From positions 1,005,970 through 1,069,969 of the forward strand of contig NZ_KL544005.1 of assembly GCF_000711985.1 (NCBI RefSeq): a DNA stretch of 64,000 nucleotides. The letters run 5' to 3'. Every line of letters begins with the position of its first letter. Within the stretch, counting starts at the first letter, position 1. Positions 6,082-56,272 of the stretch are shown in pieces. This DNA is from Rheinheimera texasensis DSM 17496 (lineage in GTDB: Bacteria > Pseudomonadota > Gammaproteobacteria > Enterobacterales > Alteromonadaceae). The notes below the pieces were generated by a model. The model saw only the letters and a program-made list of their open reading frames with translations. It ran no database searches and was not told the DNA's origin. Made by a program: the position numbers and the translations under genes.

Positions 6082-7744
6082 ACTGACTCTGCACTGGCTG
6101 CAGCGTAGCCACAGCTTTTTTCTGACCCGCACCCAACGCTTTGTGATGTTGCCGGGCGTCTACGCCATGCTGCTGGCGCTATTAACGACCGCGTTATTTT
6201 GCGCGCCGTTTCTGGCGCAGGTGCAACAAAAAATTCCGGGCCAATATGGCCTGCAGGCTGTTCTGCTGCTGGTATTGTGGTTGCTGAACAGTCTGGTGTT
6301 TGTGTTGCTGAGTGTGCCCGGTTTACCACGGCTGCAACGTAGTCTGCTGTCTGGCTTTTTCCTTATCGCCGCCATCAGCCATTATTTTATCAGCCACTTT
6401 GGTACTGTGATTGACCGCTCCATGCTGCAAAACGTGCTGGAAACCGACATCGCCGAAGCCAGTGGTTTACTCAATCCGGATTTGATTTTCACCACGGCCG
6501 GCTGGTTCGCGCTGCTGGGCTGGCTCAACTTAAAAATTGAGTTTAAAAGCCAATCCTGGCGTCGCTCTGCCGCACAGTGGCTGCTGACGCTATTGTTGCT
6601 GGTAAGCGGCATTGGTGCTGTGGCCGCAACGCAATATGCTGAACTTGCCAGCTTTTTCCGTAACTACCGCGACGTGAAGTTTTTTGCCTTGCCGATCAGC
6701 CCGCTGTCGGCCAGTATTTCAGTGACTAAGCAACAAATCGCCGCACATTTTCCGCCGACTTTTCAGGTGCTTGGCACTGATGTGCGTAATCTTGCGCCCA
6801 GCGCAGCGCCGAAAACTGTGGTGCTGGTGCTGGGGGAAACCGCCCGCGCCGACCATTTTCAACTGAATGGTTACAGCCGGCCAACCAATCCGCGCTTAAG
6901 CCAGTTACCGGTCATCAGCTTTAGCCAGGTCAGCTCCTGTGGCACCGCCACCGCGCATTCAGTGCCTTGTATGTTTTCCTGGATGGGCCGCGAGCGGTAT
7001 GATGAAACCACGGCAAAAAACAGCAGCAATGTGCTGGATATCCTGCAAAGCAGCGGCGTGGAAGTCAGCTGGTATGACAATAATTCCGGCTGCAAAGGCG
7101 TTTGTGACCGGGTCAAACACGAGATGCTGTTTGAACTGCCGGAATGCCAGAGTGATGGCTGCACCGACGCCATCCTGTTGCAGGCACTCAAGCGTGAGCT
7201 GGCGCAGCCTGCGGGCAAAGACCGCATTATTGTGCTGCACCAGCTTGGTAGCCACGGCCCGGAATATTTCCGCAGAAGTACGGCACAGCAAAAGGTATTC
7301 GGCCCGGAATGTACCGATAAAGAGCTGAATCATTGCCCGCCACAACACATTATCAATGCCTATGACAACAGCCTGCTGGCAACCGACGACTTACTTGCCA
7401 GCGTGATCCAGCAGCTGCAATCTTTGCCCGACAGCGCCATGCTGTATATTTCTGATCACGGCGAATCGCTCGGTGAAAACGGTGTTTATTTGCACGGTCT
7501 GCCGTATTGGATGGCACCCAAAGCGCAAACCGGCGTGCCGTTGATTTGGTGGATGTCACAAAGTTTTGGCCAGCACTTTGATCCGGCAAACGGCAAACCA
7601 CTGAGCTATGATTGCCTGAAGCAGCAGCAAAAACAGCCACTTAGCCACGATAATTTATTTCACAGCCTGCCGGCGCTGTTTGCCCGTACCAGTAAAGAAT
7701 TCCGGCCCGAACTGAATCTGTTTGCTGCCTGCAGCAGGAGGTAA
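6074..7744 (+). CDS. eptA: Lipid A phosphoethanolamine transferase (EptA/MCR family)
   Basis: A 556-residue inner-membrane enzyme: about five N-terminal membrane helices (to about residue 190), then a periplasmic sulfatase-fold domain. Visible active-site motifs are VLGETARAD (metal-binding Glu about 255), SSCGTATAHSVPCMFS (catalytic Thr about 290) and SDHGES (metal-binding Asp-His about 460). The Cys-rich segment NNSGCKGVCDRV and ECQSDGC fits the disulfides of EptA/MCR. It moves phosphoethanolamine from phosphatidylethanolamine to lipid A phosphates, which lowers negative charge and binding of polymyxins. It overlaps the PAP2 gene, and the BamA-like gene follows after two bases, so the three form an operon. 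As a chromosomal gene it would be an intrinsic polymyxin-resistance candidate; no mobile element is attached. Confidence 0.9.
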   Translation: MTELTLHWLQRSHSFFLTRTQRFVMLPGVYAMLLALLTTALFCAPFLAQVQQKIPGQYGLQAVLLLVLWLLNSLVFVLLSVPGLPRLQRSLLSGFFLIAAISHYFISHFGTVIDRSMLQNVLETDIAEASGLLNPDLIFTTAGWFALLGWLNLKIEFKSQSWRRSAAQWLLTLLLLVSGIGAVAATQYAELASFFRNYRDVKFFALPISPLSASISVTKQQIAAHFPPTFQVLGTDVRNLAPSAAPKTVVLVLGETARADHFQLNGYSRPTNPRLSQLPVISFSQVSSCGTATAHSVPCMFSWMGRERYDETTAKNSSNVLDILQSSGVEVSWYDNNSGCKGVCDRVKHEMLFELPECQSDGCTDAILLQALKRELAQPAGKDRIIVLHQLGSHGPEYFRRSTAQQKVFGPECTDKELNHCPPQHIINAYDNSLLATDDLLASVIQQLQSLPDSAMLYISDHGESLGENGVYLHGLPYWMAPKAQTGVPLIWWMSQSFGQHFDPANGKPLSYDCLKQQQKQPLSHDNLFHSLPALFARTSKEFRPELNLFAACSRR

Positions 7745-48462: not shown

Positions 48463-48614
48463 ACGCCCCTCCGGGAAATTTGTACGAAGCTTGCCATTTC
48501 TATCGCCAGAGGTCGAACTTTTACGCTTCCGGCAGTGTTGCGCAAAAAGAATCAGGTCGTTGCTTTGTGGATTTGTGCCAAATGCGTCAGATGGGGTCAC
48601 ATGCACACTTTTTA

Positions 48615-48667
48615 TTGCGAATAATTCTCATTTGATCTAATAATGCAAATGCGAACCACTCTCAATT
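48615..48667 (+). promoter_or_regulatory. Fur-controlled promoter of the iron/haem operon
   Basis: TTGCGA (48615-48620) and TAATAA (48638-48643) with a 17-bp spacer make a good promoter. A Fur-box-like AATAATTCTCATTTG (48620-48634) lies between them, and a second, AAATGCGAACCACTCTCAATT (48647-48667; on the minus strand ATTGAGAGTGGTTCGCATT), covers the start region. Repression by Fe-loaded Fur is expected. Confidence 0.7.
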
Positions 48668-48682
48668 AAAAGGTAACCCTCT

Positions 48683-49480
48683 GTGATTTCAGTAAAACCC
48701 TTGTTGTTGGCGCTGTGCTGTACCCTGCCATTGAGCGCTGCTCAGGCTCATGTGCCTTATCTGGCGCCTGCCAGTTTTGAACCGGTGCGGGGCTGGGTCA
48801 GCCTTGAAGCGGCATTTGCTGAGCAGTTTTTTCTGCCGGAAGCCAAGTTTGATCAAAGTGAATTTCAGGTCACCGGGCCGGACGGTCAACCGCGGGCGCC
48901 AAAAGAGCTGGTCGCAGTGAAAAGCCGCACTGTGCTGGATGATGAACTGAAAACCGACGGCACTTACAAATACAGCACTGGCCAGCGCTTGGGCGCGGTG
49001 TTTCATAGCTATGAATTAAACGGCAAAACCGAAAACAGCCGGGACCCAAAGTTTGTGCTGCCCAAAGGTGCCACGCTCAAAGCGCATTTTCAGAGTGTGA
49101 CCCGCGCTGAAACTTATATCAGCAAAGGCAAACCGGACCAAACTGCGTTAAAAGCCAGCGGCAAAGGCCTGGAGCTGCAGTTTGTGAGCCATCCGAATGA
49201 CCTGTACGCCGGCCAGCCGGTTACAGGCGTTTTACTGCTGGACGGCAAACCACTGGCCGGCAGCAAACTTGAACTGCACCAAACCGGCAACCACAGCGCC
49301 GGCCAAAACAAAACCGCACCAGTGCCAGTCACGACCAATGCAAAAGGCGAATTCAGCCTGACACCGACACAGGCCGGCACTTACCTGTTGCTGGCCCGCC
49401 ACCGCGCCCCAGCCCCGCAAGGCGCCAAAGCACCGACTTACAGCCACACCAGTACTGTGGTGTTTGAAGCGGCGGAATAA
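48683..49480 (+). CDS. DUF4198 periplasmic protein of the iron-uptake operon
   Basis: A 265-residue protein with a GTG start (AAAAGGTAA nine bases upstream) and signal peptide (ends SAAQAH). Mature start HVPYLAPASFEPVRGWVSLEAAFAEQFFLPE is the DUF4198 (NikM/CbiK-like) signature, and the C-terminus has a carboxypeptidase-regulatory-like Ig fold (TTNAKGEFSLTPTQAGTYLLLARH). These proteins accompany TonB receptors and metal transporters; metal binding by the N-terminal His is plausible. First gene of the Fur-controlled operon. Confidence 0.85.
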   Translation: MISVKPLLLALCCTLPLSAAQAHVPYLAPASFEPVRGWVSLEAAFAEQFFLPEAKFDQSEFQVTGPDGQPRAPKELVAVKSRTVLDDELKTDGTYKYSTGQRLGAVFHSYELNGKTENSRDPKFVLPKGATLKAHFQSVTRAETYISKGKPDQTALKASGKGLELQFVSHPNDLYAGQPVTGVLLLDGKPLAGSKLELHQTGNHSAGQNKTAPVPVTTNAKGEFSLTPTQAGTYLLLARHRAPAPQGAKAPTYSHTSTVVFEAAE

Positions 49481-49506
49481 GCACAACCATATTTCAGGAG
49501 AACTTT

Positions 49507-50469
49507 ATGATGATGCAACCCAAAACCATCCGGCATTTTTTACTGGTCAGCAGCTTGTATCTGCTCGGCCAGCCCGCGACAGCGCAGCAGACCAACAACA
49601 CAGCGCCAACCCGTGCCCACCAGCCAACACTGCAAGCCAAGATTGATTTTATTGCCGAATTTGACCAAAACGGCGACGGTCAGGTCAGCCACAGTGAATT
49701 TTTCACTGAGCGCCAGCACCGCCTTGCCCTGATGGACCTCAGGCACAACGCCCAGATCGATGTCGCCGGTTATCAGGCCGAATACGCCGACCGGCTGGAC
49801 CAGCGACTGGCGGCAGACCGCAAAGGCCAGCTGAAACAAACCGAGGTGCGTTTTGCTGCGGTAGACAAAGATCAGGACGGCCGCATCAGCAGCGCTGAAT
49901 ATCAGTCGTCGGGCCAAAGCGCCTTCCGTTTTATCGACAGTAACAAGGATGGCCAGATTTCAAAAACAGACAGCAAGGCCGATCCGGTACCACAGCGGCG
50001 TGGTCAAAATAACGCCGAGCAACCCCGCCGCCGGCCAGCGCTGGTGATGCCAACCACCCATAGCGTCAGCGGCATGCTGGCCATGTACGACACGGATAAA
50101 AATGGCGAAGTGAGCGCGGCTGAATATCAACAGATTCGCCAGCAAGCCTTTGCCCGCACGGACGCCGACCAGGATGGCTCGTTGTCTGCGCAGGAATACA
50201 TGCAGGAATTTACCGACCGGGTTGACCAGCAAATCGCCAGCACCCGCAGCGCACAGTTAAAACAGGCACAGGTGCGGTTTAAAGCGCTGGATAAGGATGA
50301 AAACGGCATCTTGAGTGCGGCTGAATATCATCAGTCTGGCCAACGCATGTTCAGCCGCTGGGATACCGACCAGAACCGGTTGGTCAGCGCCAGCGAAGCA
50401 CTACCTGAAGCAGAGAGTGCCCCAGCGACCAGTGACAAAGCAAAAAAGACCACAAGGACGGCGCCTTGA
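49507..50469 (+). CDS. Secreted protein with seven EF-hand loops
   Basis: A 320-residue protein with a signal peptide (ends PATAQQ). Seven EF-hand calcium loops can be read: DQNGDGQVSHSE, DKDQDGRISSAE, DSNKDGQISKTD, DTDKNGEVSAAE, DADQDGSLSAQE, DKDENGILSAAE and a last degenerate DTDQNRLVSASE. The two halves look like an internal duplication (compare VRFAAVDKDQDGRISSAEYQSSGQ and VRFKALDKDENGILSAAEYHQSGQ). Periplasmic calcium sensor or buffer; its place in an iron operon is unexplained. One base separates its stop from the next gene. Confidence 0.88.
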   Translation: MMMQPKTIRHFLLVSSLYLLGQPATAQQTNNTAPTRAHQPTLQAKIDFIAEFDQNGDGQVSHSEFFTERQHRLALMDLRHNAQIDVAGYQAEYADRLDQRLAADRKGQLKQTEVRFAAVDKDQDGRISSAEYQSSGQSAFRFIDSNKDGQISKTDSKADPVPQRRGQNNAEQPRRRPALVMPTTHSVSGMLAMYDTDKNGEVSAAEYQQIRQQAFARTDADQDGSLSAQEYMQEFTDRVDQQIASTRSAQLKQAQVRFKALDKDENGILSAAEYHQSGQRMFSRWDTDQNRLVSASEALPEAESAPATSDKAKKTTRTAP

Positions 50470-50470
50470 T

Positions 50471-51871
50471 ATGAAAACTGCATGTTGCCTGCTGTTCTGC
50501 ACTAGCCTGGCGCAGGCTGCCACAGTCACGCTACCGGGCCCCGGCCCGCTCCCTGTCCGGCTGGAAGTAACAGGCACAGAGATCAGCAAGGCTGAGCAAC
50601 TGCAGCTGCAACAGTATCTGGAGCAGCAATGGCCCTGGCTCGCAGACGCCCGGTACTGGTCCGCCGCCGAGCAATTTGCCGCAACGGGAACTTGGCCAGC
50701 CGATGCAGTGTTATTGCGGCAGGCCTGGCAGCAATGCGAGGCCTGGTGGCAACAGCAGCGCAGTTATCATTGCCGCTTTGGCGCGGCCCGCAAGTTATGG
50801 GGTCTGGCATCGCAACAAGCCGCTGCCAGCGGCGAATTACCGGACCGGGTGAAACTGCGCCGCGAAGCACGCCAGCTGCTCAGTCTGCAGAGTGATGCAG
50901 TGCGGTTGCTGCCGGATCTGCAAGGTTTTGCCCAGGCAGTGTTGCTGGATAATCTGCTCACCCAAGCCAAAACCTTGTGGCCAGACGCCAGCTTGCAATT
51001 GCAATTTGGTCACTGGCGCGCACAGTTTGCAGACACGGCGCTGACGGTTCAGGCATTTGGTCAACCGACACAAAATCCGCTGACCGCCATCCGTTTACAG
51101 CAGCAAGTGTTGCTGCAGGCGAACGTGAATCATGCGATTGGCCCTGACGCCGTCTGGCATCCACTGGAAGCCTGGCCGGTGCAATATGGGCCTGCTGTGG
51201 CAGTGACCAGTCAAAGCTTCAGCCGCGCCTGGTTACTGGCGCAGGCGCTGACTGCCGTTAATCCCAAAGCGCGCACGCAATCTCTGCAGCAGACCGACGC
51301 AGCGCTGTGGCGTGAATGGCAACAAGACCCGACGGCAGCGCCACAGTTGCAGGCATCCGCCAGCTGGTTTGATCAGCTGCAAGCGGCGACGGCCTATCAG
51401 CAAAGCCAACAGCTGCAGTTGCAACTGGAATTGCCGGTGCAGCCGCGCCAGGCAAAACGGCCTTATGTCAGCGCCTGGCTCAGTCAGGATGGCCAATGGC
51501 AGGCGCAGCTGTTGCTGCTCGGGGAACAGCCACGCTGGTATGCGGAACTGCGCAGCTGGTGGCGTCAGGCCAATCAACAGAAAGGCCAACCCTTCGACCA
51601 GCTGGCAGGCGCCACGCGCAGAGCGGGTGTGCATCAGTTCCTGTGGGACGCCCGTCTGGCTGACGGCAGACCGCTGCCAGCCGGCGATTACATCTTACAT
51701 CTGGAAGCCGCGCGCGAAGGCGGCGGCCGCGAGCAACTGAAATTGCCGCTGCACTGGCCGCTGTCGCACCCCTTGGTGCTGCAGGGCCAGCACGAGCTGG
51801 GTCAGGTCCGCGTGGACGTTCGCCCGGCCGGCGACCCCACGCCGACCGCCGCGGTGCATCCGTCCGGCTAA
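50471..51871 (+). CDS. DUF2271 protein with possible degenerate ApbE-like N-terminus
   Basis: A 466-residue protein from the ATG at 50471 with a signal peptide (ends LAQAATV). The C-terminal ~120 residues (RPYVSAWLSQDGQWQAQLLLLGEQPRWYAELRSWWRQ, then GVHQFLWDARLADGRPLPAGDYILHLEAAREGGGRE) are a DUF2271 domain. The middle part (FGHWRAQFADTA; VAVTSQSFSRAWLLAQALTAVNPKA) is laid out like the last half of ApbE flavin transferases, but the metal-binding Asp and the HIID motif expected there are absent. DUF2271 and ApbE genes often neighbour each other in iron-reduction loci with PepSY proteins. A fused, inactive flavin-transferase relative is inferred; moderate confidence. Confidence 0.6.
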   Translation: MKTACCLLFCTSLAQAATVTLPGPGPLPVRLEVTGTEISKAEQLQLQQYLEQQWPWLADARYWSAAEQFAATGTWPADAVLLRQAWQQCEAWWQQQRSYHCRFGAARKLWGLASQQAAASGELPDRVKLRREARQLLSLQSDAVRLLPDLQGFAQAVLLDNLLTQAKTLWPDASLQLQFGHWRAQFADTALTVQAFGQPTQNPLTAIRLQQQVLLQANVNHAIGPDAVWHPLEAWPVQYGPAVAVTSQSFSRAWLLAQALTAVNPKARTQSLQQTDAALWREWQQDPTAAPQLQASASWFDQLQAATAYQQSQQLQLQLELPVQPRQAKRPYVSAWLSQDGQWQAQLLLLGEQPRWYAELRSWWRQANQQKGQPFDQLAGATRRAGVHQFLWDARLADGRPLPAGDYILHLEAAREGGGREQLKLPLHWPLSHPLVLQGQHELGQVRVDVRPAGDPTPTAAVHPSG

Positions 51872-51991
51872 GCGACAACAACCCCCGACTGCTTTTTGTA
51901 ATAACCGGCACTGCCTTTTGGCAGGGCCTGGCTGAGTACTACCCAAAACAGCCATTTGACCATGAAACATCTGATTGATAAGGAATCGAAC

Positions 51992-54298
51992 ATGTCACCC
52001 CGTTATTCATTGCTGATGCTGGCGTTAAGCCCTGTGTTACTGACCGCCAAAGTCTTTGCGGCCGATGCTGCCAGTGCCAAAACGCTGGAGGCTGTCGAAA
52101 TCAAAGCCAGCGAAATCAAAACCAGCCCGCAATTAAAACAACAGCAGGTCAGTGCCAAAGATATCGACAGCCAGCAAATCAGCAATCTCACAGATTTAGT
52201 GCGGATGGTGCCCGGCGTGAATCTGACTGACATCGGCCGCTTTGGCTCCAGCGGTTTTAATATCCGCGGTGTCGAAGGTGATCGCGTCAAAATTGCCGTG
52301 GATGGCTTAGCCCTTGGCGAAACCATGGACCCGGACAGCCATGCACCTTATGAGTTTTTCCGCTCCGGCCTTGGTGGCATCGACCCGGATGCATTAAAGC
52401 AGGTCAATATTCTCAAAGGCGCTGACGCCATCAGTGCCGGTAGTGGTGCCTTAGGCGGCGCCGTGCTGTTTTTGACCAAAGATCCGGCCGATTTCCTCAA
52501 TTCCAGTGGTGACGACGGCGCACTCAAGTTCAAAAGCCAATACAGCGGCAATAACAGTGAATGGCTGCACAGCATCACCGGCGCCGCCCGCACCGGCCGC
52601 TTAGAAAGCCTGCTCGTGTATAGCAGTCGCGATGGTGAAGAAAGCCAAAGTTATGACCGCCACAGCACCGTCACAGGCCCGGGTAGTACCAGCGCCGACC
52701 CGCTCAGCGCACAAAGCCGGAATTTATTACTGAAGCTGCAATACAGCTTGTTGCCGGAGCACAAAATCGGCTATAGCCTCGACAGCTACCAAACTGACAG
52801 CAGCTTGCAGAACCTGTCCCGGCAGGACCAAACCTACTTAAGCCGCACCGGTCTTGATGACAGCAACCGCGACAAACACAGCCTGCAATATGACTATCTG
52901 GCCGGCCTGGCTTTATTTGATACGCTGCAGCTGAAATTTGACCACCAAAACAGCCGCAACCACGGCCTGACGCGGATGACCGTCACTGCGACCTGCCCAC
53001 AGAATGTGAGCCCATGCATCCGCGAAGAAGACCGCGATTTCCGGCAGAAACTGACCCAATGGACCGCCGCTTTTGATAAAGAGCTGAACACAGAAAAACT
53101 GCTACAACAATGGACTTATGGTCTGCAGGCGCAAAACAAAACGGTCAGCTCAGTCGCGATAGACCGCCGCTTTGTCGGCCAGACCTCAACACTCGCGACC
53201 ACCGAAGTGGACCCGGCTTTTGTGCCGGTCACCGATATCAGCACCCGCTCGATCTATGCCCGTAACCTGCTGAGCCTGACCGACACGGCCTGGTCGTTCG
53301 GCCTTGGCGCGCGCTACGATTCAATCGATTACAACCCACAGTTGTCGGCGACTTACCAGGATAAAACCGGTTCAGTCAAAGCCGTCGATTTTGGCGCGGC
53401 CAGTTATCAGGCGCAGCTGCATTATCAGCTCGATGAGCGGCAACGCCTGAGCCTGCAGGCCGGCCGGGGTTTCCGCGCGCCGACCACCGAAGATATGTAT
53501 CTGCAGACCAGCACCACCAGTTTGCAGGAAGCGGTCAGCGGCAATACCGTGACGTTACCGACGGCGCAGGCCAACCCGGCATTAAAACCCGAGCACAGCC
53601 TGAATCTGGAGCTGTCGTACCAGCTGACGTTGGATAACAGCGCACATCAGCTGTCGTTATTTCGCGATAAATACAGCGACATGATCCAGAGCGGCCAGTT
53701 CACCATCAACCCCACCACCGTCTACCAAAGCTGTGTGCGCGGCGTCTGCAGCAAACAAAATGGCGCTGTGTACAGCATGCCGGTCAATATCGACTCGGCC
53801 GTGGTGAAAGGCATTGAACTGGAAGGCCATTGGCAACCAGACGCCCACTGGCGGCTGAACTGGGCAGCAACTTACCAGAGCGGTGAAGAACAAAATGGCG
53901 AGCCGCTGCTCAGCGTGATGCCATGGAGTGCCGTGCTGGGCGTCGGTTATCAGCTCAATGACGATATCCGGTTATTGCTGAATAACCGTTATCAGGCGGC
54001 AAAAAGCAGCTCAGACGCCTGGGTCTATAACAGCAGTGGCGCACAAACAGCTGCCACGCCTTATTTAAGTGACAGCGCCTTCGTCAGCGACTTGTCGTTG
54101 CAATGGCAAGTGCTGGATCAGCTGGCGCTGACCGCCGGGGTGTTTAATCTGCTGGACCAGGAATATTATCGCTGGGAGCGGCTGCAATATGTCACGCAAT
54201 CAGTGGGCGCGGTGCGCGGCGGTGTCAGTGGTGATGGCATCCGGCGTTATCTGGAAAGTGGCCGTTATGGCAAGGTCAGCCTGACGCTGAGCTTCTAA
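51992..54298 (+). CDS. TonB-dependent haem/haemoglobin-type receptor
   Basis: A 768-residue protein from the ATG at 51992 (AAGGAA upstream) with a signal peptide (ends KVFAADA). Plug domain: SNLTDLVRMVPGVNLTDIGRFGSSGFNIRGVEGDRVKIAVDGLALGE and VNILKGADAISAGSGALGGAVLF. The barrel ends with KVSLTLSF. The DGLALGETMDPDSHAPYEFFRSG segment is the style of the haemoglobin/transferrin/lactoferrin receptor family. Fur boxes ahead of the operon support an iron substrate, most likely haem. The gene ends in a strong terminator. Confidence 0.88.
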   Translation: MSPRYSLLMLALSPVLLTAKVFAADAASAKTLEAVEIKASEIKTSPQLKQQQVSAKDIDSQQISNLTDLVRMVPGVNLTDIGRFGSSGFNIRGVEGDRVKIAVDGLALGETMDPDSHAPYEFFRSGLGGIDPDALKQVNILKGADAISAGSGALGGAVLFLTKDPADFLNSSGDDGALKFKSQYSGNNSEWLHSITGAARTGRLESLLVYSSRDGEESQSYDRHSTVTGPGSTSADPLSAQSRNLLLKLQYSLLPEHKIGYSLDSYQTDSSLQNLSRQDQTYLSRTGLDDSNRDKHSLQYDYLAGLALFDTLQLKFDHQNSRNHGLTRMTVTATCPQNVSPCIREEDRDFRQKLTQWTAAFDKELNTEKLLQQWTYGLQAQNKTVSSVAIDRRFVGQTSTLATTEVDPAFVPVTDISTRSIYARNLLSLTDTAWSFGLGARYDSIDYNPQLSATYQDKTGSVKAVDFGAASYQAQLHYQLDERQRLSLQAGRGFRAPTTEDMYLQTSTTSLQEAVSGNTVTLPTAQANPALKPEHSLNLELSYQLTLDNSAHQLSLFRDKYSDMIQSGQFTINPTTVYQSCVRGVCSKQNGAVYSMPVNIDSAVVKGIELEGHWQPDAHWRLNWAATYQSGEEQNGEPLLSVMPWSAVLGVGYQLNDDIRLLLNNRYQAAKSSSDAWVYNSSGAQTAATPYLSDSAFVSDLSLQWQVLDQLALTAGVFNLLDQEYYRWERLQYVTQSVGAVRGGVSGDGIRRYLESGRYGKVSLTLSF

Positions 54299-54316
54299 AC
54301 TGCGTCTTTGCCAACA

Positions 54317-54346
54317 GGCAGAGATCCAGCGATCTCTGCCTTTTTT
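54317..54346 (+). terminator. Rho-independent terminator after the iron operon
   Basis: GGCAGAGATC (54317-54326) and GATCTCTGCC (54331-54340) form a perfect 10-bp stem with a CAGC loop, followed by TTTTTT. Confidence 0.95.
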
Positions 54347-54362: not shown

Positions 54363-55283
54363 TCAACCAGACGCAACAGCAGCACTAAGCTCCCGGTACA
54401 AAGCTTTATGATGGTCGCTCAGAACCGCGACATCAACCTGCTGCAAATAACCGCGCGCTTTGGCCGGTGCCTGCAGTGCCAGATAGAGCTCGCTAAGGCG
54501 CAGCCGGTGAATGGACTGCTGCAAATCGTCTATGCCGGGGCGCATATAAGGCAATGATTTTTCATAATAATCCACCGCTAACCCCAACTGCCCGAGCAGC
54601 TGATAAGTGCGTGCCAGATTACCGTGCGCGACAATAATGTCGTGATGACGGTCACTGGGCAGGATCGCATCGAGTGCCTGCTTGCGATAATAAGCGGCAT
54701 CATCAAGCTGCTTCAAAGCATGGCGGACCAGCGCTTTATTGCTGTTCAGTTCAAACACAAACTGCGGATCGCGGCTTTTGGCAAAACGCTGCTCTGCTTG
54801 CAACAGCAACTGCCAGGCTTTGTCATTTTGCCCGGCAACGGCCTGCAAATTCGCCAGCTCCAGCACCCGCATCGGGTCAGCAAAAGCCTGATAAATCGCC
54901 TCAAGCTGCCGGCTCGCCAGCTCAGTGTAATAAGCCGCCTGGGCGTCATCACCGCGGGCTATTAAAGTTTTGGCCTGATAAAAATACAGCTGAGTGCGAA
55001 AGGCCACAGGCGCATCGGCAATTTTCAGCAGCTGATTGCTTTCATCATACAATTGGCGGAACTGATGATTCACATACAGATAATCCAGCCGGTACGACTG
55101 CAGCTTAAACCACAGCAACGTATGCAGCGGTGTCTGCGAAAGCGCCTGCTGCAACAATTCGGCACAGGGCGTGGCCGGTTGCTGCAGGCAAAACTCTTCA
55201 TGATCACTCAGGTGCTCAGCCGCTTGAACGCCTGGCAGCAAACTGCTGCACATTAGTGTGAGGGGAATTAGGTTTAATTTCAT
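54363..55283 (-). CDS. Secreted TPR-like protein, tandem paralogue 2
   Basis: A 306-residue protein with a signal peptide (ends GVQAAEHL). AEHLSDHEEFCLQQPATPC at the mature start includes a Cys pair; the rest is TPR-like (FRTQLYFYQAKTLIARGDDAQAAYY, FVFELNSNKALVRHALKQLDDAAYYRKQALD, AHGNLARTYQLLGQLGLAVDYYEKSL). About half the residues match the gene just upstream, so this is a recent tandem duplicate. Function unknown; periplasmic protein-interaction role inferred. Confidence 0.75.
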   Translation of the reverse strand: MKLNLIPLTLMCSSLLPGVQAAEHLSDHEEFCLQQPATPCAELLQQALSQTPLHTLLWFKLQSYRLDYLYVNHQFRQLYDESNQLLKIADAPVAFRTQLYFYQAKTLIARGDDAQAAYYTELASRQLEAIYQAFADPMRVLELANLQAVAGQNDKAWQLLLQAEQRFAKSRDPQFVFELNSNKALVRHALKQLDDAAYYRKQALDAILPSDRHHDIIVAHGNLARTYQLLGQLGLAVDYYEKSLPYMRPGIDDLQQSIHRLRLSELYLALQAPAKARGYLQQVDVAVLSDHHKALYRELSAAVASG

Positions 55284-55315: not shown

Positions 55316-56272
55316 TCAATCGGCGTCGCACTGCGCTATTGCCTTGCTGGCAACAAGCTGCTGGTGCAGGTATTGATAAAGTGACTGGTAAGTCGTCTCG
55401 ACCAGCTGCGGCTCGACCTGACTGAATATCTGCCTTGCGCCAGCCAGATCCTGCAACTGACAATGGACCTGACTAAGGCGCAATAAGCGCATTTGCCGGC
55501 GCACATCGTCCGCCCCCGGATTCATCCGCGCTAAGGCCTGCTGGTAATATTGCTGCGCCAACCCATATTGGCCGAGTAACTGATAAGTCCGGCCCAGATT
55601 GCCGTAAGCGACGCTGATTTTGCCGTCGTCGCCGCTGGGTAAAATGGTGTCTAATGCCAGTTTGCGCGCATAGGCAGCGTCTGCCATCTGCCCGTTTGCC
55701 TGCTGCACCAGCGCTTTGTTGGTATAAAGCTCAAACAAAAATACCGGATCTTTGCTTTTGGCAAAGCGGGCTTCTGCCTGCATCAACAGCTGCCAGGCCT
55801 GCGTTTGTTGCCCCATCACGGTTTGCAGATTGGCCAGCTCCACCAATCGCAGCGGGTCAGCAAAGGCCTGAAATAATTGCGCCAGGTCTGCAGCAGCCAA
55901 ATCAGCGTAATGCTGCGCCTGCAACAATTGGCCATTGCTGTGCAGAATTTTGGCCTGATAGAAATACAGCTGCGTGCGAAACACCGGTGGCATGTCTTCC
56001 AGTTGCAATAACTGGGTCGTTTGTTGCGCCAGTTGCTGGTCCAGATGTTTATCAAACAGGTAATCGAGCTGATAGGATTTCAGCTGATACCAGCGCACCG
56101 AAAAAGGCTTAGCGCTGTCCAACTGTTGCTGCAGCAATGCCAGGCAATCCTGCCGCGCCGCGCTTTGGCAAAAAGCTTCATGATCGTTGAGGTGCTCAGC
56201 CGCCTGAGCCACTGTCATCATCACAGACCACAACATACAGAACAGCAGCCAACACAGCTTCATACGACACAA
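55316..56272 (-). CDS. Secreted TPR-like protein, tandem paralogue 1
   Basis: A 318-residue protein with a signal peptide (ends VAQAAEHL; an ATG nine bases in is an alternative start). It shares AEHL-DHE-FC, FRTQLYFYQAKIL, QAFADP-R-ELANLQ and the AYGNLGRTYQLLGQYGLA TPR with its neighbour. The N-terminal Cys pair (FCQSAARQDC) is kept. 32 bp separate the two genes, so they are an operon. The third relative is at 12510-13436. Confidence 0.75.
   Translation of the reverse strand: MCRMKLCWLLFCMLWSVMMTVAQAAEHLNDHEAFCQSAARQDCLALLQQQLDSAKPFSVRWYQLKSYQLDYLFDKHLDQQLAQQTTQLLQLEDMPPVFRTQLYFYQAKILHSNGQLLQAQHYADLAAADLAQLFQAFADPLRLVELANLQTVMGQQTQAWQLLMQAEARFAKSKDPVFLFELYTNKALVQQANGQMADAAYARKLALDTILPSGDDGKISVAYGNLGRTYQLLGQYGLAQQYYQQALARMNPGADDVRRQMRLLRLSQVHCQLQDLAGARQIFSQVEPQLVETTYQSLYQYLHQQLVASKAIAQCDAD

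Follow-up and report, generated by a model that had tools for sequence, protein, structure and literature searches.

The genome of Rheinheimera texasensis DSM 17496 carries, within a 64,000-nucleotide stretch of contig NZ_KL544005.1 (positions 1,005,970 to 1,069,969; hereafter the window), a putative four-gene iron-uptake operon, the third product of which consists of an ApbE-like domain fused to a DUF2271 domain. To judge from its residues, the ApbE-derived domain is dead as an enzyme, yet it is conserved under purifying selection. The other genes encode a DUF4198 protein, an EF-hand protein and a TonB receptor, and two Fur-type boxes lie upstream. We give about an even chance to the reading that this is a Fur-repressed operon for iron uptake of the haem or haemoprotein type, in which periplasmic proteins handle the imported metal and the pseudo-ApbE is a scaffold that presents the DUF2271 flavin-acceptor domain.

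In the third protein, DUF2271 (residues 315–444) is the sole domain recognized by Pfam, with 106.6 bits for PF10029 against a cut-off of 27.3. The preceding region, approximately residues 17–300, is related to ApbE, which we take to be COG1477. PF02424, the ApbE model, finds no match in the protein itself at E-values up to 10, and the hhalign match to true ApbE is weak (1.7e-5, probability 78 %, identity 12 %). The assignment of this N-terminus to ApbE rests on its relatives. Seven of eight family members match PF02424 (best 2.9e-17), and a profile of the family reaches the flavin adenine dinucleotide (FAD):protein flavin mononucleotide (FMN) transferases of the PDB at 1.4e-4 over profile positions 20–315. 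The fusion gene in 14 relatives scores 34–65 bits for ApbE, their separate true ApbE proteins 180–312 bits, save for a 95-residue fragment at 99, and four related fusions from other genera score 146–166 bits. Both this N-terminal domain and the loss of its catalytic residues were overlooked in the initial annotation of the region.

The catalytic triad of ApbE is Ser241-His257-Asp285 in Vibrio cholerae numbering (PMC12052999). These three positions were tabulated together with the Thr four residues on (T289). All four residues are kept in 30 of 30 true ApbE proteins; the window protein has A, A, W and Q. Among 34 fusions, 12 preserve Ser, Asp and Thr, ten of these also having the His and two a Gln, while the remaining 22, comprising all 16 from the genus and six from other genera, lack His, Asp and Thr and are referred to here as dead. 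A Ser is aligned at position 241 in two of the dead rows from the genus (L003 and L004). One genome encodes two fusions (L159, 6145–7608, and L160, 6272–7744) in which Ser, Asp and Thr are kept and Gln replaces the catalytic His.

In 45 pairs from 10 congeners, the ratio of non-synonymous to synonymous substitution rates (dN/dS) of the ApbE-derived domain has a median of 0.134 and a maximum of 0.198, and that of the DUF2271 domain is 0.065. The possibility that the ApbE part is a decaying remnant is rejected by these values. Two cysteines, C89 and C101 of the protein encoded at 50471–51871, are invariant in 10 diverse fusions, both preserved and dead, and perhaps form a disulfide. Several Trp and Pro residues are likewise invariant; the true ApbE rows in the alignment with these fusions do not have the two cysteines.

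The target motif of ApbE is D-x-x-[ST]-G-A-[ST] (PMC12052999). The window DUF2271 domain has D-Q-L-A-G-A-T at residues 376–382, in which the D, G, A and acceptor T are present and Ala occupies the first S/T position. Dead fusions have D-x-x-[AS]-G-A-T in all 21 readable cases, one being lost to a contig end, whereas none of the 12 preserved fusions has G-A before the acceptor (A-K-P-T, A-R-P-T, A-H-A-T, S-G-P-T and similar). The acceptor T/S itself is retained in all 33 fusions with a readable motif. Of 39 candidate standalone DUF2271 rows, 21 were parsed (20 of them distinct) and 18 were not; only 10 of the 21 have G-A, so that standalone DUF2271 seemingly does not need it, which weighs against giving the motif contrast a functional meaning. 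In a DUF2271 tree, from which the preserved L159 and L160 (missed by the pattern) and the dead L002 (contig ending before the domain) are excluded, the dead fusions fall into two clades with support of 95/88 and 99/96, but their order relative to the preserved fusions is not settled; the motif contrast may therefore go back to as few as one or two events in evolution.

We tentatively propose, as a history, that an ApbE became fused to its own substrate domain within an iron-uptake module, that catalysis was then lost in two clades and that the domain was kept by selection. The dead domain would be a flavin- or ligand-holding scaffold dependent on another ApbE, and the preserved fusions would be self-modifying, using a relaxed motif. 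Preserved and dead fusions of ApbE with its substrate offer a natural comparison, and make a role for flavin in periplasmic iron handling testable.

The genes of the operon are all intact open frames on the forward strand, with intergenic gaps of 26, 1 and 120 bases (Table 1), and may be read as a single transcript. Among the 22 terminators in the scan, the one just beyond position 54298, where the stretch first assigned to the operon ended, is the longest of those listed that are rich in G+C. The open frames, the family matches and this terminator agree with the initial annotation, which described a four-gene operon closed by a strong terminator. The same annotation called the promoter good. 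A site matching the consensus at 9 of 12 positions is present, but such sites are no commoner than in shuffled sequence (four found and 4.4 expected by chance), and the putative promoter is plausible from its position only. Convergent with the operon lie two adjacent TPR protein genes on the reverse strand (54363–55283 and 55316–56272), apparently tandem paralogues.

Table 1. Coordinates (window positions) of the operon and its associated sites
Feature	Position	Strand	Basis
Putative sigma-70 promoter, TTGCGA-18-AATAAT	48615–48644	+	9/12 match
Fur-type box 1	48610–48636		overlapping 21-mers 48610–48630 and 48616–48636; covers -35 and spacer of the putative promoter
Fur-type box 2	48644–48664		starts at end of the putative -10 and extends downstream
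DUF4198 gene	48683–49480	+	PF10670, 3.6e-42
EF-hand gene	49507–50469	+	several EF-hand Pfam models above cut-offs
DUF2271 protein (ApbE-like fusion)	50471–51871	+	PF10029, residues 315–444, 1.1e-30
TonB receptor	51992–54298	+	TIGR01786, 403 bits, cut-off 323.75
Intrinsic terminator	54316–54341	+	11-pair stem followed by T-run

The Fur-type boxes were assessed with a 21-base matrix seeded with the Fur consensus and trained on the upstream regions that this operon has elsewhere, at 20 loci (13 from congeners and seven from other genera), the window itself being excluded. When 127,960 places of the window are scanned, the three highest scores fall at 48616 (24.0), at 48610 (23.5), which is that box again in an overlapping frame, and at 48644 (21.1); the best score elsewhere is 15.2, at 7474. 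Because a matrix made without the window ranks them first to third, the two boxes are truly present at the promoter, as the initial annotation had proposed. The seeding of the matrix means that this is evidence for a conserved Fur-like site and not for binding of Fur.

The receptor exceeds the NCBI curated cut-off for TIGR01786, the haemoglobin/transferrin/lactoferrin subfamily, and is assigned to that subfamily by score, its cargo being predicted accordingly from sequence. It carries FRAP and NPAL boxes. At the level of sequence, Fur-type control, as suggested in the initial annotation, and one operon with a receptor of the haem or haemoprotein type are supported.

The EF-hand protein is exported and built from a duplicated unit; six canonical loops are recognized in it by pattern. 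Its nearest solved relative is lanmodulin (7.8e-6). Identity with lanmodulin is rejected, the score for NF053806 being 63 bits against a curated cut-off of 135. A Pro at position 2 of the EF loop is the mark of lanmodulin; it is found in none of the six loops.

The DUF4198 protein is predicted to begin, when mature, with a His (..AQA|HVPYL), the cleavage site having been placed by eye without a signal-peptide program, and 17 of 17 aligned DUF4198 proteins have His at the point where cleavage is likely. Its AlphaFold model, of low confidence (mean predicted local distance difference test score, pLDDT, 56), matches the Ni-bound DUF4198 structure from Ideonella, PDB 9GCB, at 3.3e-10 (PMC12537917). 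The Ideonella and window proteins have in common the domain and the mature N-terminal His; the second ligand in Ideonella, His18, corresponds by number to a Ser at mature residue 18 in the window protein. Another His, preceding a Pro, is kept in all 17 aligned proteins. The same model also matches 'Zcp', for which the entry titles name Zn, Cu or Co as the metal in the structure. In PDB 9MHI–9MHN, chains are named phosphoribosylglycinamide formyltransferase while the titles say Zcp, a metal-bound DUF4198-like structure. The initial annotation saw no firm function for the secreted proteins, which undervalues what is known of DUF4198, with its Ni-bound member, and of DUF2271, a substrate of flavinylation by ApbE (PMC8238504).

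Within the genus, the fused protein is present in 16 of 22 genomes, R. texasensis included (60 relatives searched), and the four-gene order is found in 15 of these; the contig of the sixteenth stops within the third gene. Outside the genus, 18 loci were obtained from searches of 395, 369, 394 and 398 genomes at thresholds of 1e-25 or 1e-45, and 17 of them have all or part of the module. The EF-hand gene adjoins the fusion at 17 of the 18, and DUF4198 lies within the fetched stretch at 16, two of these DUF4198 genes (L127 and L128) being several kilobases off and part of a PepSY-type set. PepSY occurs at four, and is normally absent from this module. All four receptors scanned from strongly matching outside modules exceed the TIGR01786 cut-off; that of L159 exceeds the cut-off of TIGR01785 (haem/haemoglobin), and that of L158 neither. 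Because it recurs at these outside loci, the association of the EF-hand protein with a haem-type receptor is regular. A calcium-type protein in an iron operon had seemed unexpected in the initial annotation; its regular place beside the fusion, and a comparable Caulobacter gene pair under Fur, speak otherwise. Across several bacterial families, the module thus links a single class of iron receptor with exported proteins of three kinds that are poorly understood (DUF4198, EF-hand and DUF2271).

At L127 (2130–5409) and L128 (8376–11803), genes for a ZnuA-like binding protein, an ATP-binding cassette (ABC) ATPase and an ABC-3 permease separate a PepSY-type DUF2271/DUF4198 set from the EF-hand/fusion/receptor module. 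These genes, identified by Pfam at L127 and by layout only at L128, hint at a common metal route. At L125 (10873–13776), L126 (1698–5234) and L156 (8516–12209), genes of the DUF3450/ExbB/ExbD type adjoin the module, by Pfam at L125 and by resemblance at the others; this looks like a dedicated TonB energy system. The R. texasensis genome encodes one true ApbE, on contig C6, and a second DUF2271 away from the window. Around this second DUF2271 (with T-G-A-T), on contig C8 (L034, 6260–8201), PepSY_TM_like_2, DUF2271 and DUF4198 stand in a row, which is the canonical PepSY-like set.

The operon is probably switched on by iron shortage, under which Fur would leave both boxes and all four genes would be read. 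The TonB receptor would import iron from haem or a haemoprotein-type carrier, and the three exported proteins would act in the periplasm: DUF4198 may bind a transition metal via its N-terminal His, the EF-hand protein may bind a hard metal, whether calcium or some other, and the third protein may present its DUF2271 flavin-acceptor domain on the catalytically dead ApbE scaffold. If flavinylated, this domain would receive FMN in trans from the one true ApbE of the genome, the sole candidate seen. It could then supply the imported iron with electrons, for which a PepSY_TM protein encoded elsewhere is a possible source.

Several observations weigh against a haem-type iron system with a flavin-bearing DUF2271. 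Scored against the textbook Fur 19-mer, the boxes match at 12 of 19 positions, which 363 of 2000 shuffles of the same stretch also reach; the classical match is no better than chance, and the 19-mer was dropped as a judge of the boxes for that reason. Haem receptors are marked by a conserved His between the FRAP and NPxL boxes, and inspection of the receptor sequence finds no His between its two boxes. The AlphaFold model of the fusion, which is poor (mean pLDDT 52), matched no ApbE among the 50 best matches listed, its best structural match being FlgD (8.8e-3). In the genus, all 15 proteins with a readable flavinylation motif have Ala at its first S/T position. Deposited DUF4198-type structures hold Ni, Zn, Co or Cu, and none is shown with Fe. 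Pfam identifies no PepSY gene among the four operon and four flanking genes; this local absence, already remarked on in the initial annotation as that of a usual companion, stands, but is not odd given how few of the outside stretches have one.

Some of these observations point to other explanations. The dead ApbE domain may have left flavin chemistry and now bind haem, a siderophore, FAD or the receptor, with DUF2271 an immunoglobulin-like interaction domain that carries no flavin. The loss of every catalytic position in the window protein, the invariant Cys, Trp and Pro residues, the purifying selection and the genus-wide Ala are all consistent with this, but the acceptor residue is kept in every readable fusion, and we consider the explanation possible though doubtful. 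That the receptor imports a ferric siderophore, with the periplasmic proteins aiding its reduction, is unlikely: its 403 bits for TIGR01786 compare with 106 bits for the siderophore subfamily TIGR01783, below the cut-off of 223.5. The missing His between the boxes would suit such a substrate, as would the prediction that six iron-responsive receptors of Alteromonas, encoded close to PepSY genes, are siderophore receptors (PMC7190382). It is quite improbable that the receptor has a non-iron substrate and that the operon is for uptake of a different metal (Ni, Zn or Co) or for metal stress in general. The metals in 9GCB (PMC12537917) and in the Zcp titles, and the ZnuA/ABC/permease genes beside the module at two loci, would fit this, but the Fur-type boxes, the receptor subfamily and the iron response of related genes in Caulobacter and Alteromonas (PMC3751524, PMC7190382) argue for iron.

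Parts of the window operon have counterparts in known systems. In Caulobacter, CC2193 (CCNA_02274, EF-hand; CCNA_02275, DUF4198) lies beside the haemin receptor CC2194, a gene pairing like that in the window, although the part of the paper examined lists a glutathione peroxidase, and no DUF2271, in that cluster (PMC3751524). These genes are strongly iron- and Fur-responsive, with Fur bound at the CC2193 promoter; the fold changes given for the EF-hand/DUF4198 genes are 64.8 and 167.7, in columns read as iron limitation and fur mutant. This is the only paper found to join DUF4198 with an EF hand. In Alteromonas macleodii, MASE_18630 (a COG1477-DUF2271 fusion) and MASE_18640 (DUF4198) lie near an iron-responsive TonB receptor and are up under iron limitation, and DUF4198/DUF2271 pairs adjoin iron-responsive receptors; the part of that paper examined mentions neither an EF-hand protein, present in the window operon, nor whether the ApbE part is catalytically intact (PMC7190382).

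DUF2271 is flavinylated by ApbE, fusions of the two exist, and PepSY clusters frequently hold DUF2271 and DUF4198 (PMC8238504). The window operon shares with these PepSY-like flavinylation clusters (PepSY, ApbE, DUF2271 and DUF4198) the pair DUF2271 and DUF4198 and a link to iron, but lacks PepSY and a live ApbE, its ApbE being dead and fused, and adds the EF-hand protein and the receptor. Elsewhere, PepSY/DUF2271/DUF4198 genes help Caulobacter fitness under ethylenediaminetetraacetic acid (PMC11870441), the Caulobacter DUF2271 and DUF4198 genes are given as 0.50 and 0.41 in a zur mutant table (PMC4176598), and a PepSY protein is required for use of hydroxamate siderophores (PMC13001220). With the ApbE FAD:protein FMN transferase (PMC12052999), the fusion shares ancestry over its N-terminal domain, but the catalytic triad is gone. 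Fusion of DUF2271 to an ApbE that has lost catalysis does not come up in the part of the DUF2271 literature that was examined. The combination of genes in the module is largely precedented; the dead, selected ApbE domain fused to DUF2271 is the new part.

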